From Colwellia sp. (GTDB lineage: Bacteria > Pseudomonadota > Gammaproteobacteria > Enterobacterales > Alteromonadaceae), in contig JAESPR010000055.1 of the NCBI GenBank assembly GCA_016765685.1, forward strand, positions 1-38,500: DNA of 38,500 nt. Direction: 5' to 3'. Positions 5,799 to 22,221 of this stretch are shown in pieces. Position 1 is the first letter of the stretch. Every line of letters begins with the position of its first letter. The position numbers were made by a program, and so were the translations under genes. The notes under the pieces are model-generated. The model was not told the DNA's origin. It saw nothing but the letters and a program-made list of their open reading frames with translations, and made no database searches.

Positions 5799-5843
5799 CT
5801 TTTTGTATTTAAATTAAGTTTATTTTTGTTTAGCAGTGAACGG

Positions 5844-5852
5844 TGATATAAT
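5844..5852 (+). promoter_or_regulatory. Extended -10 promoter of large RNA copy 1
   Basis: TG-A-TATAAT with a weak T-rich -35. Transcription would start near 5859, exactly at the first conserved hairpin of the structured RNA. Confidence 0.6.
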
Positions 5853-5858
5853 TACCTT

Positions 5859-6375
5859 GCGGTGTGAAGACCGTTTAAAAAGAAATTGGTAGAGGGTATT
5901 TAGAATTGTGATCTTTGGTGGGTTTTTCATCTACTGATTTCACCCCTCTTCAACAGAGGTTACAATTTTAAGTACCTTTTTTGTATCTGAATTAATATTA
6001 CATATGCGTAGTGTGACCCACAAGCCACTAATTCGATAAGAGTCACCAGATACAATCCTCTACACTTAACCGGTGTTTGAAACCTTTAGCGGGGCGAGTG
6101 GGTTTGAAGCCCACACACTTTCTAAACTCCTTCATACTGCCGAATTTTCTCGGTTATCGTAAAAAACCTTAATCAAGCTAACGATTATAATTAGCAAATA
6201 TCGAATACTTAGTATTAATCGACTTTTAGACACGAGAATAAACAGCATTTTCTGCATGGTATATGGATTGGGCATCCAACAAGGATTGTGAATAGCTAGC
6301 TGATACTGATTTAATACTACTTGATATAAACTAAGCGCACTTACTCATCCATGCAGTAACGTGTCTAATGATACT
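5859..6375 (+). ncRNA. Large structured RNA, copy 1 (family unassigned)
   Basis: About 517 nt with no credible ORF. Helices readable by eye: GCGGT/ACCGT (5859-5863 with 5870-5874); a 15-bp helix 5895-5909 with 5962-5976; TTGTATCTG/CAGATACAA (5981-5989 with 6047-6055); GCCGA/TCGGT (6139-6154); GCTAA/TTAGC (6177-6195); AATAC/GTATT (6204-6216); a 9-bp closing helix TTAGACACG/CGTGTCTAA (6226-6234 with 6360-6368); CTGCATGG/CCATGCAG (6252-6259 with 6349-6356); and TGGAT/ATCCA (6264-6278). Most recur in the same order with changed but still paired bases at 21272-21735. The segment about 6060-6130, with hairpin GTGGG/CCCAC, is specific to this copy. Expressed from its own extended -10 promoter. Role unknown; size and phage setting recall ROOL and GOLLD RNAs. 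Confidence 0.85.
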
Positions 6376-6406
6376 TATTGCCTTAATTTAACAAATCAAT
6401 CTATCG

Positions 6407-6415
6407 TGCTATAAT
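6407..6415 (+). promoter_or_regulatory. Extended -10 promoter of the head-tail/tail operon
   Basis: TGCTATAAT, identical to the sites at 1943 and 35734, 28 bases before the ATG at 6444. It lies just downstream of RNA copy 1 and should drive the connector and tail genes. Confidence 0.65.
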
Positions 6416-6443: not shown

Positions 6444-7271
6444 ATGGCTCAGAATTTAGTTATACCTGGCGCAGACAATAAAGTCAGATTTGAATTTGGC
6501 GGTATCGATCTTAATCTCGCTACAGACTTATCAATAGTGTTTGGCTCTGAGGTTTACACGCTATTATTAAACCCGACCATCGTATTTATTGAGTCAGCCA
6601 CAACACTGGCTTTAGACTTAAATGCTACGGCAGAAGTTGGTAAAATATTCGCAACAGTAAAATACTTTGATGCGGGCACTACTTTAGGCGAGGACATCAC
6701 AAGCCGTGAACTTGGCAATAGTGATCAAATAGTTGTAGCTATCGGTACGCAGTTAATTATCGAAGATGGCTCAGTGGTTGCGGATGCTAACTCTTGGGTA
6801 ACTGATGCTGAATACAAAGCCTTTGCTAAACTAAAAGGTTATTCAGTGCCGGCAACACAGCCAGATAGAGAAGCTAACTTAGCTAACGCTTACGACTTTA
6901 TCAATATGACGTATGAACAGCGCTTACAAGGCGGCAGGGTTACACCACAAACACAGACAGGCGTATTACCTCGCAATGGTATGATTGCCTATAATGCTTT
7001 CGTTGGTAATGATGAAATACCTAATGATTTTAAAAACGCTCAAATGTTAGCGGCATTCTCTATTAACGATGGCGTTGATACTAACGCAGTTAAAACAGAT
7101 GCAGACTTAGCAAGCTTTACGGTAGTAGGTGTTTACGCTGAAACTTATCAGGCCAATTCAAATACACCGACACTCGCACAAATGCCAGCAGTTTCAAGAA
7201 CATTAACGCCGTATACTAACGCCGGTCTTGGTGGTGGTTTGAGTCGTGATAACATGGGGTTTTTAGGTTAA
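6444..7271 (+). CDS. Head-tail adaptor with DnaT-like domain and extra N-terminal beta domain
   Basis: 275 residues. Residues about 1-105 form a beta-rich domain (VRFEFGGIDLNLATDLSIVF, TTLALDLNA, IFATVKYFDAG) similar in style to BppU-type phage domains. Residues about 112-200 contain SWVTDAEYKAFAKLKGYSV and ANLANAYDFIN, the pattern of the helical phage adaptor family labelled DnaT-like in domain databases; despite the name, these occupy the head-tail adaptor position. The C-terminus carries RTLTPYTNAGLG. First gene of the connector block; its stop abuts the next ATG. The two-domain arrangement looks like a fusion. Moderately sure of the adaptor role. Confidence 0.7.
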   Translation: MAQNLVIPGADNKVRFEFGGIDLNLATDLSIVFGSEVYTLLLNPTIVFIESATTLALDLNATAEVGKIFATVKYFDAGTTLGEDITSRELGNSDQIVVAIGTQLIIEDGSVVADANSWVTDAEYKAFAKLKGYSVPATQPDREANLANAYDFINMTYEQRLQGGRVTPQTQTGVLPRNGMIAYNAFVGNDEIPNDFKNAQMLAAFSINDGVDTNAVKTDADLASFTVVGVYAETYQANSNTPTLAQMPAVSRTLTPYTNAGLGGGLSRDNMGFLG

Positions 7272-21026: not shown

Positions 21027-21254
21027 ATGAGTGAATTAAAGAAAGTAATACCTACCGAGTTCTACAACGAAGATGAAGCAATGATGCCGCCGCCAAGGGT
21101 AAATACTGTAGGCGAGCTAATAGAGCAGCTTAAAAGGCTTCCTAGTGATTTACCATTAAGCGGATGGGAGTATTTAACACATGAAATAATTGTTTATAAT
21201 ATAACCATGGATAATACGCATGTAAGCATAGAGGAGGTTGACGAAGAATTCTAA
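21027..21254 (+). CDS. Small early protein with VGELI-LxxLPxDLP motif
   Basis: 75 residues, AGGAG ribosome site, one base after the previous stop. VNTVGELIEQLKRLPSDLPL is a widespread small-protein motif in phages (helix then turn), followed by a short beta end. Its last codons contain the -35 box of the promoter for large RNA copy 2. Function unknown. Confidence 0.65.
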   Translation: MSELKKVIPTEFYNEDEAMMPPPRVNTVGELIEQLKRLPSDLPLSGWEYLTHEIIVYNITMDNTHVSIEEVDEEF

Positions 21255-21265
21255 TAGCGTATAAT
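21238..21265 (+). promoter_or_regulatory. Promoter of large RNA copy 2
   Basis: TTGACG (21238-21243), 16 bp, TATAAT (21260-21265): a near-consensus promoter overlapping the end of the preceding ORF. Start expected near 21272, eight bases before the first conserved hairpin. Confidence 0.75.
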
Positions 21266-21271
21266 AGAACA

Positions 21272-21735
21272 GGTAAACCGCAGTGTGGAAGCTGCTTGTA
21301 AATGGTAAAGATAAAAGGGTTATGTGTTTAAGGTCTTGGTATTCGTGGGATAACTTCCACAAGTATCTTTACCACCCCGTTTATCTAGGGCTTTAAACAT
21401 ATAGCCTTTTTTTGTGTCCGATGGATCCATTCTAACCTTAACGGGTGTGATTAATACTGTCGGGCACAACCCCTTTCAAAGCTTCTTATCTACTGCCAAG
21501 TTAATTGGTATCTTGTAAAAATCCCTAACGGTTTAGCTAAAACTGTAAATTAGCAAATATGTAATATCTTTATATGTAATGACTTTGACCGAGATAAACA
21601 AGCTTTCTGCAAGGTATATGGTGTGGACTACCAACACGGATTTGTGAACAGTTGCTTGATTACCGTTATATATAATTGAATATGAGAATACTGTTAAGGC
21701 TCTTCATCCTTGCAGTAACGGTCATTAAGATATCT
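21272..21735 (+). ncRNA. Large structured RNA, copy 2 (family unassigned)
   Basis: About 464 nt without a credible ORF, homologous to 5859-6375. Helices in the same order: GCAGT/GCTGC (21280-21295); a 14-bp helix 21318-21331 with 21393-21406; TGTGTCCGA/TCGGGCACA (21413-21421 with 21460-21468); CCAA/TTGG (21496-21508); GCTAA/TTAGC (21536-21554); TGACCG/CGGTCA (21586-21591 with 21719-21724); CTGCAAGG/CCTTGCAG (21607-21614 with 21708-21715); TGGT/ACCA (21619-21633). Bases differ from copy 1 but pairing is kept. Shared unpaired segments include TTAGCAAATAT, GAGATAAACA and CCTTTTTTTGTGTC. Has a near-consensus promoter. An HNH gene follows. Confidence 0.85.
21720..21732. repeat. Left arm of inverted repeat around the HNH gene
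   Basis: GGTCATTAAGATA here is matched in inverted orientation by TATCTAATGACC at 22228-22239 (12 bp with one bulged A). The repeat encloses the HNH ORF, and its left arm overlaps the 3' closing helix of RNA copy 2. The right arm also resembles the 3' end of RNA copy 1 (AACGTGTCTAATGATA against AACGTATCTAATGACC). Confidence 0.65.
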
Positions 21736-21759
21736 ATGTTTAAAATATAAGGGTTTATT

Positions 21760-22221
21760 ATGATTGACACAAAAGGTTTATATTACCAATCGTCTACAGG
21801 TAAGTTTTATCGGTACTTAAAAGAAATTGGTTCTATCTATAAAAACAGTTGTGGTGCTGAATACATAAACATCTACAACAAGGGGAAGACTCATAAAGCG
21901 CATAGACTCGCTTGGTTTATGTTTTACGGTAAAGAGCCCAAGTTTGATGTTGATCACAAAGATGGTGACGGAACAAACAACAGAATAAATAATCTTAGAT
22001 GCGTAACCAAATCAATAAACCAAAGAAACCAAAAGTTGAGCTCAAGAAATAAAAGCGGGGTTGCTGGTGTTTTATGGAGAAAAGCTATAAGCAAATATGA
22101 AATTACAGTAACGGTAAATAAAAAACTAATTAATTTAGGTTACACAGCTAGTTTGTTTGATGCTGCTTGCATAAGAAAATCATTCAATAACAACAATGGA
22201 TTTACAGAGCGTCACGGATGA
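21760..22221 (+). CDS. HNH homing endonuclease with AP2-like C-terminus
   Basis: 153 residues. HKAHRLAWFMFYGKEPKFDV, DHKDGDGTNNRINNLR and KSINQRN form an HNH_3-type nuclease (catalytic His in VDHKDG, Asn pairs NN-x-x-x-N-L). The C-terminal KSGVAGVLWRKAISKYEITV to FDAACIRKSFNNNNG is an AP2-like DNA-binding unit, a common pairing in phage free-standing homing endonucleases. AAGGG ribosome site. It sits immediately behind the structured RNA and inside an inverted repeat, so it may move together with, or have invaded, that locus. Confidence 0.88.
   Translation: MIDTKGLYYQSSTGKFYRYLKEIGSIYKNSCGAEYINIYNKGKTHKAHRLAWFMFYGKEPKFDVDHKDGDGTNNRINNLRCVTKSINQRNQKLSSRNKSGVAGVLWRKAISKYEITVTVNKKLINLGYTASLFDAACIRKSFNNNNGFTERHG

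Follow-up and report, generated by a model that had tools for sequence, protein, structure and literature searches.

Two gene-free loci in a tailed-phage contig

The window analysed here is a whole contig of 38,500 bases, contig 100 in a 3.0-Mb genome bin. It carries tailed-phage genes for scaffold, major head protein, head-tail adaptor, terminase, portal and head morphogenesis, and its terminase shares 71.5% identity with the terminases of Vibrio phages 1.144.O and V039C. Two gene-free stretches, here c1 and c2 (Table 1), had been singled out in a preliminary description as diverged copies of one structured RNA that together occupy about 2.5% of the 38.5 kb. Both lie where that description placed them, its c2 start (21272) being 8 nt before P1, and its arithmetic is correct. 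An open reading frame search with a limit of 50 amino acids returned none within c1 and a single TTG-started antisense frame that clips c2, with none credible.

The two copies present the same helix series in the same order on the same strand. BLAST aligns them at 73% identity over 179 nt (E 1.6e-12) in their middle and 3′ parts, and their 5′ parts have little sequence in common. Every helix pair named in the preliminary description is found in both copies: P1 (GCGGT/ACCGT in c1 against GCAGT/GCTGC in c2), P3 (at the same place with unrelated sequences), P4 (TGTATCTG/CAGATACA against TGTGTCCGA/TCGGGCACA), P5 (CCGA/TCGG against CCAA/TTGG, confirmed by sequence alone), Ha (GACACG/CGTGTC against TGACCG/CGGTCA) and Hb. 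Four crossing interactions (P2, L1, He and Hd) are absent from that description and constitute the most telling feature of the RNA.

The 3′ domain of c1 is 98% identical to that of its nearest relative and that of c2 91% identical to its own nearest, against 76% between c1 and c2, which rules out a recent duplication of c1 as the origin of c2. Two copies per genome occur in three cases: the window, Vibrio phage NF and a viral contig (G408). Another contig of the same bin has a weak match to the 5′-domain model (L102, G000:C105:21502-21630; 41.2 bits, E 3.7e-4), located where genes are sparse and, by eye, ahead of a helicase-like gene; it is perhaps a further distant 5′ domain.

Table 1 Features of the two RNA loci in the window. 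R1 and R2 are covariance models of the 3′ domain and of the type-A 5′ domain, respectively
Feature	Position	Strand	Evidence or remark
c1 -10 box TATAAT	5847-5852	+	Sequence; 6 nt ahead of P1
c1 RNA, whole	5859-6375	+	R2 140.4 bits at 5859-5996, R1 194.1 bits at 6193-6386; copy among training sequences of both models
c1 P1 hairpin GCGGT/ACCGT	5859-5874	+	Swap test 0/10,000
c1 L1	loop 5865-5869 with 5948-5952	+	Swap test 0/10,000
c1 P2	5882-5893 with 5930-5941	+	Crosses P3; swap test 0/10,000; -14.1 kcal/mol
c1 P3, 23 pairs	5895-5917 with 5954-5976	+	Swap test 0/10,000; pair counts
c1 T6 run	5977-5982	+	Directly after P3
c1 P4	5982-5989 with 6047-6054	+	tRNA slot reduced to a stem
c1 variable linker	6055-6139	+	Sequence
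c1 P5 hairpin	6140-6143 with 6150-6153	+	Sequence
c1 GCTAA/TTAGC	6177-6181 with 6191-6195	+	Sequence alone
c1 He	6211-6220 with 6308-6318	+	One bulge; 0/10,000 swaps
c1 Ha	6226-6234 with 6360-6368	+	Crossed by He/Hd; 0/10,000 swaps
c1 Hd	6243-6246 with 6299-6302	+	0/10,000 swaps
c1 Hb	6252-6259 with 6349-6356	+	Crossed by He/Hd; 1/10,000 swaps
Separate promoter TTAACA-16-TATAAT, between c1 and next gene	6388-6415	+	11/12 matches; TG before second hexamer
Head-tail adaptor Ad1 gene (phrog_477), downstream of c1	6444-7271	+	E 1.5e-27
c2 -10 box TATAAT	21260-21265	+	With TTGACG at 21238-21243; 11/12 matches
c2 RNA, whole	21280-21735	+	R2 65.8 bits at 21280-21427, R1 153.2 bits at 21553-21745; copy among training sequences of both models
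c2 5′ domain	21280-21413	+	
c2 P1	21280-21284 with 21291-21295	+	
c2 L1	21284-21291 with 21354-21361	+	
c2 P2	21304-21313 with 21364-21373	+	
c2 P3	about 21317-21339 with 21382-21406	+	T7 at 21407-21413
c2 P4	21413-21421 with 21460-21468	+	-13.4 kcal/mol
c2 3′ domain	21570-21724	+	
c2 He	21570-21579 with 21666-21675	+	
c2 Ha	21586-21591 with 21719-21724	+	
c2 Hd	21599-21603 with 21654-21658	+	
c2 Hb	21607-21614 with 21708-21715	+	
HNH endonuclease gene (phrog_99, Pfam HNH_3), directly downstream of c2	21760-22221	+	E 3.6e-46; 1.5e-18

Relatives are chiefly found in phages

The preliminary description made its reading depend on homologous regions with covariation in related phages. Covariance models were built and phage genomes searched, and such relatives were found. 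BLAST of c1 against named phages at E ≤ 1 returned 276 records, of which 20 were looked at, leaving aside the Erwinia, Serratia and most Vibrio records. Among the matches listed, the 5′ part is shared with Vibrio phages 1.054.O (5e-14), NF (6e-13) and BT-1011 (0.05), and the 3′ part weakly with Vibrio K phages (E 0.6). A relative from a viral contig (L007) used as query adds Pseudoalteromonas phages HS2 and BS5 and Vibrio phages 1.132.O and 1.189, and pattern scans of viral contigs supplied further relatives. The two weak matches of c2 to named phages (E 0.5) were taken as chance, as were four Lactococcus matches of the 5′ region that fall within structural genes (E 3e-3 to 3e-2). In all, the searches covered seven pattern scans of viral contigs, a single scan of genome contigs and some 1,240 genomes or records. 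In the 17 members with both domains recognised, the RNA measures about 425-676 nt.

R1 was run over 47 sources and, at E ≤ 0.1, gave 34 matches, training sequences counted in, and R2 matches 23 of 31 genomes or records at the same threshold. Among bacterial genomes, R1 matches 2 of 395 in the host family (own genome included) and 1 of 369 in the class, the own genome; R2 matches 3 of 394 in the order, again with the own genome included and with one match weak (G486, 34.9 bits). Six matches came from the genome-contig pattern scan, only one of them (L068) a member. Because it is rare in the bacterial genomes searched, the RNA family is chiefly phage-borne.

L068 lies on a contig of a Robiginitomaculum bin, and the stretch upstream of its P1 is almost identical to positions 5815-5858 of the window, which may reflect misbinning of the contig or a recent move of the cassette. 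Pattern matches without RNA homology were set aside (L010, L011, L012, L013, L016, L017, L019, L020, L022, L023, L079, L088, L092, L093 and 18 loci of one further scan).

A pseudoknotted 5′ domain

In the type-A form of the 5′ domain, the P1 hairpin is followed by a giant predicted H-type pseudoknot, in which P2 crosses P3, and by a U-run. P2 (about 7-13 pairs) opens ahead of P3 (about 23 pairs) and closes within it, and the loop of P1 pairs with a distant third segment to form L1. In c2, L052, L091 and L095 this partner segment precedes the 3′ strand of P2, and in most members it comes after that strand; in 4 of 24 members (L021, L072, L073 and L089) the best partner picked by script is at an unexpected place. 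The loop of c1 pairs more strongly with the partner segment of c2 (-7.9 kcal/mol) than with its own (-6.4 kcal/mol).

We assessed these helices by a mate-swap test, exchanging one strand of a helix among 24 non-redundant members in 10,000 permutations. The sample began as 34 entries, 31 of them unique, and lost L017 and L019 (the only rows dropped for a missing T-run, both non-members) to leave 29, a misregistered duplicate of L052 to leave 28, and redundant sequences to leave 24. The mean cost of swapping is 1.3 kcal/mol for P1, 2.9 for L1, 5.3 for P2 and 13.6 for P3, and for each helix no permutation reaches the real value. In the P1 and P3 columns 87.0% of cells are paired, against 81.2% in shuffled and 40-49% in slid versions, the structures for the column counts of both domains having been drawn from one member each (c1 and L068), which favours them over the slid versions. 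Both sides change in 13 pairs of these columns, against 7.5 in shuffles.

Ten relatives have a recognised 3′ domain and a 5′ domain that the type-A profile missed, among them L045, a weak R2 match of 29 bits. P3 is well supported in these ten (0/10,000), and P2 can be picked out by eye as GTCGGAC/GTCCGAC in L048 and as CTTGACGGGA/TCCCGTCAAG in L006. The first automated swap test failed for P2 (721 of 10,000 permutations as good) because the script assigned P3 wrongly in some members; with windows set by position the figure is 56 of 10,000. When P2 is compared with 1000 shuffled partners, the number as good is 0 in L006, 23 in L048, 57 in L082, 75 in L051, 93 in L085 and 340-796 in the remaining five. 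A putative pseudoknot common to these ten relatives is thus moderately supported. Conversely, 11 of the 28 type-A 5′ domains are without a recognised 3′ domain.

A double pseudoknot in the 3′ domain

The 3′ domain is predicted to form a double pseudoknot, in which He and Hd cross Ha and Hb around the conserved segments AUAAACA and GGUAUAUGG. The 34 R1 matches comprise 31 unique sequences, of which 29 could be parsed (L050 is incomplete and L015 is without the anchor) and 20 fall below 90% identity to one another. Swapping strands among these 20 weakens He from -10.6 to -4.5, Hd from -4.7 to -2.6 and Ha from -11.2 to -5.8 (0/10,000 permutations each), and Hb from -11.5 to -8.9 (1/10,000). In a sequence-only alignment of 21 members (the 20 and c1), 85.5% of cells pair, compared with 73.2% in shuffled and, subject to the same one-member bias, 30-39% in slid versions. 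Both sides have changed in 23 of the 35 pairs of the domain, including 10 of the 11 pairs of He, and the covariation score is 0.331 against 0.124 in shuffles. The number of further pair types is a less striking measure, reached by 26 of 500 shuffles, and Hb is lost in L055.

These data bear on whether there is an RNA at all. Fortuitous folding of neutral intergenic sequence, or small genes that escaped recognition, would fit the modest signal that nearest-neighbour folding gives on its own (z -2.8 for c1 and -3.9 for c2) and the record of Vibrio phage K30, which annotates a 37-aa 'hypothetical protein' over the RNA (L006 1890-2003, VPHK30_0020), an annotation that is probably spurious. The compensatory changes among 20 and 24 non-redundant sequences refute the chance-fold reading, and we consider an explanation of either kind to be extremely improbable.

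The end of the RNA is also seen by itself. A stretch of about 60 nt at L050:2264-2326 corresponds to the final part of the RNA standing alone directly behind an ORF, and at L055:1110-1140 (- strand) just the final TCTAATGACCCTTATT motif is found, likewise directly behind an ORF, as if a gene had replaced or entered the body of the RNA.

tRNAs occupy either of two slots in some members

In the members looked at, P4 follows the U-run and is itself followed by AAYCC or a similar segment. The place of P4 is taken by a complete tRNA-His (GTG) in L077 (ARAGORN; Rfam 53.7 bits) and by a complete tRNA-Gly (TCC) in L105, which is a genome contig from the same order (ARAGORN; 68.0 bits). At the same place L055 has an Rfam tRNA match of 29.5 bits, marginally above the cut-off of 29, and L078 and L103 (the second copy of phage NF) contain what by eye is tRNA wreckage with P4 as the acceptor stem, neither being listed by cmscan at E ≤ 1. 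A second slot lies in the linker, where L015/L024 carry a tRNA-Arg (TCT; 69.2 bits) and L021 a degenerate tRNA (33.6 bits). In the linkers of L014, L055, L072 and L077, this second slot is closed by a putative long helix, formed by AGTCTGTATAAGTGAAGTGAG / CTCATTTCACTATACAGACT or variants of it.

ARAGORN finds a complete tRNA in 3 of 29 type-A RNAs (2 of the 28 plus L105), compared with 0 in ten shuffle sets for the 28, and there is no tRNA in c1 or c2. The hairpin at 6098-6114 in the c1 linker (GTGGG TTTGAAG CCCAC) looks like a T-arm by eye and fails strict T-arm criteria. Hairpins that satisfy those criteria number 6 in the 28 RNAs, against 0.48 expected from the remainder of the loci; 4 of the 6 are in the already tRNA-bearing L015, L021, L055 and L077, and only those in L075 and L086 are new. 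Relaxed ARAGORN thresholds were useless, shuffles giving about half as many matches at -ps75 and roughly the same number at -ps60.

Such insertions could mean that the RNA delivers, protects or mimics tRNAs during infection, for example against host nucleases that cut tRNAs, with the pseudoknots shielding its ends. Three kinds of intact tRNA, spread over two slots, and degenerate ones elsewhere would suit a carrier, guard or decoy of this sort, but the small number of RNAs with a complete tRNA and the empty slots of c1 and c2 speak against it, and we judge it improbable.

Promoters and gene neighbourhood

The preliminary description assigned each copy its own promoter. Comparison supports this: a -10 box with at least 5 of 6 letters lies no more than 32 nt from P1 in 27 of 28 type-A members, against 1168 of 5000 random windows, and P1 starts a median of 7 nt past the box. 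A consensus scan taken alone shows no clear excess (3 promoters against 3.4 in shuffles near c1, and 5 against 3.0 near c2). A second promoter behind the RNA, as at c1, can be seen by eye in L009 and L049. The 3′ ends of c1 and c2 yielded no terminator when scanned.

To tally downstream genes, the next start codon was picked by script for the 29 parsed 3′ domains. The next gene encodes a head-tail adaptor in 8, a scaffold protein in 2 (L044 by scanning and L091 by the same protein start), a portal protein in 1, a methyltransferase in 1 and an HNH nuclease in 2; a further 9 were scanned without a named PHROG match, and 6 were outside the scan. Among members with only a 5′ domain, L072, L073 and L018 precede T5orf172 (GIY-YIG-like) proteins, and NF and 1.054.O precede phosphoesterases. 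The RNA therefore has no fixed partner gene, and a gene-specific riboswitch was rejected because the neighbouring genes differ.

Put-type antitermination RNAs and attenuators are structured RNAs at the extreme 5′ end of a phage transcript. The RNA described here likewise places structure at a 5′ end, but is far larger and has a conserved 3′ domain and tRNA slots. A leader or attenuator is nonetheless the main rival to the interpretation given below: P3 and the U-run would form a conserved terminator at which polymerase stops after about 135 nt unless a phage or host factor permits passage, and the rest of the RNA would control or protect transcripts of the downstream gene. All 28 type-A members have CC at the end of P3 followed directly by 5-8 T, a T-run having been a parsing requirement; the script-picked start codon is 14-37 nt past the 3′ domain in 12 of 29 members; and the 5′ domain of BT-1011, which is without a recognised 3′ domain, stands immediately before a gene. 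All of this would be expected of an attenuator. The variety of downstream genes would not, nor would the second promoter behind c1, L009 and L049, the absence of a U-run from L006 (a member with another 5′ type) or the roughly 390 nt of structure past the U-run, which is far beyond what an attenuator needs. On balance we think a leader function unlikely.

The neighbourhoods also show that the RNA is modular. The 3′ domains of c1 and L008 are 98% identical, yet L008 has another 5′ type (its record is without an R2 match) and a portal gene downstream, whereas c1 precedes a head-tail adaptor gene; the 5′ and 3′ domains therefore move independently. Near-identical 3′ domains beside different genes could instead reflect a mobile RNA cassette, that is, a homing-endonuclease-linked element (a worn-out intron or similar) spreading among phages. 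Genes of homing-endonuclease type (HNH or T5orf172) are indeed first downstream in c2, L006, L072, L073 and L018, and the RNA locus may be a homing target. The other scanned neighbours are non-nucleases, however, no interrupted host gene was seen, and neither introns nor HEARO are among the Rfam matches. A mobile cassette is accordingly quite improbable in our estimation.

Comparison with known RNAs

ROOL forms a homo-octameric RNA cage and GOLLD a homo-14-meric one, and the preliminary description proposed that the two copies belong to these RNAs or to a new class beside them. Membership did not hold up: at E ≤ 1 the GOLLD (RF02032) and ROOL (RF03087) models each match 0 of 20 genomes or records, although the 14 control genomes of the tool were silent too, and neither model is found on c1 or c2 at E ≤ 10. 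Searches of both copies against Rfam 15, at gathering and at loose E-values, gave only chance matches to microRNA, snoRNA and rli48 models, which leaves their novelty standing, and the loci of 12 relatives gave nothing except tRNA. Group I and group II introns and HEARO are not among the Rfam matches, with RF01998 over its cut-off in 0 of 20 genomes or records. We recognised no description of this RNA among the papers listed by searches of the open-access PMC library.

Homologues that covary strongly and a plan like that of GOLLD support the second alternative. Being gene-free and having covarying structure conserved across phages, the loci belong to the broad kind of large structured phage RNAs, and the family has the GOLLD-type plan of separable domains and a linker able to hold a tRNA, c1 and c2 themselves being without one. 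From the portions of the GOLLD report drawn on here (PMC12286853), GOLLD is likewise a large RNA borne by phages and prophages, of unknown function, in which the 5′ and 3′ domains evolve separately, the variable linker can hold a tRNA and long-range loop contacts covary. The RNA described here is shorter, at about 425-676 nt where many GOLLD RNAs exceed 800, and neither P2 × P3 with L1 nor the 3′ double pseudoknot is among the GOLLD features described in those portions (PMC12286853). It differs further in that its tRNA can also occupy the place of P4, directly after the U-run, and in the paired copies of the window, phage NF and G408. With ROOL it shares a similar length, going by a 574-position model and a 659-nt example in the same portions (PMC12286853), as well as carriage by phages, pseudoknots and a variable linker; the ROOL model, as noted, matches none of the 20 genomes or records, the control genomes also being silent.

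A noncoding RNA of about 800 nt between gp139 and gp140 of ICP1 is also a large RNA of a Vibrio phage, and is abundant according to the part of the source used (PMC7567579). The ICP1 record is without an R2 match and reaches only E 0.88 with R1, and homology is not supported by these models.

We conclude that c1 and c2 almost certainly belong, as diverged members, to a class of large phage RNA that is as yet undescribed. By the evidence above, this class is separate from ROOL and GOLLD and of the same broad kind, with the plan of GOLLD and a different predicted fold.

A possible architectural RNA

In the portions of the GOLLD report considered, the 5′ and 3′ regions are separate three-dimensional domains, 14 chains build a cage whose interior contains the linker (tRNA-bearing in some members), and a loop contact that covaries turned out to be intermolecular (PMC12286853). 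By analogy, we tentatively favour an architectural RNA that would work like GOLLD, possibly as a self-assembling scaffold, and consider this plausible although short of likely. Its two rigid domains would fold separately, and the exchangeable L1 loop contact, together with other loops, would hold copies in a homo-oligomer. L1 is the candidate intermolecular contact, and its partner segment shifts place between subtypes. The linker, with or without a tRNA, would be the displayed or enclosed part of the particle, and copies from different lineages in one phage would yield two particles or a single mixed one.

Covariation in all eight mate-swapped helices (0-1 of 10,000 permutations), domain shuffling, tRNA slots (His, Gly and Arg plus two weaker Rfam matches) and the absence of a fixed partner gene all argue for such an architectural RNA. 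Several observations argue against it. The loop specificity of c1 is not clean, the partner of c2 being the better one, which may allow mixed assemblies or be meaningless, and 4 of 24 L1 partners are displaced. The 3′ domain goes unrecognised in 11 of 28 type-A members, and P2 has moderate support in ten relatives. P3 with U5-8 resembles an intrinsic terminator, for which an architectural RNA has no need, and none was found at the 3′ end of either copy.

A more specific version of the architectural reading, again drawn by analogy and in our view doubtful, is that these RNAs could represent a third natural class of RNA-only particle, with pseudoknot-locked, separately evolving domains and exchangeable loop contacts, forming a cage or ring in or on which a phage tRNA is enclosed or displayed, and that one phage would encode two of them of separate lineage.

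An RNA with the plan of GOLLD and a different fold adds to the few large structured phage RNAs that have been described. It is carried by named, isolated phages (Pseudoalteromonas HS2 and BS5; Vibrio NF, 1.x and K), which makes experiments practical. The capture of tRNAs by an unrelated scaffold hints at a functional link between tRNA and scaffold in both classes.
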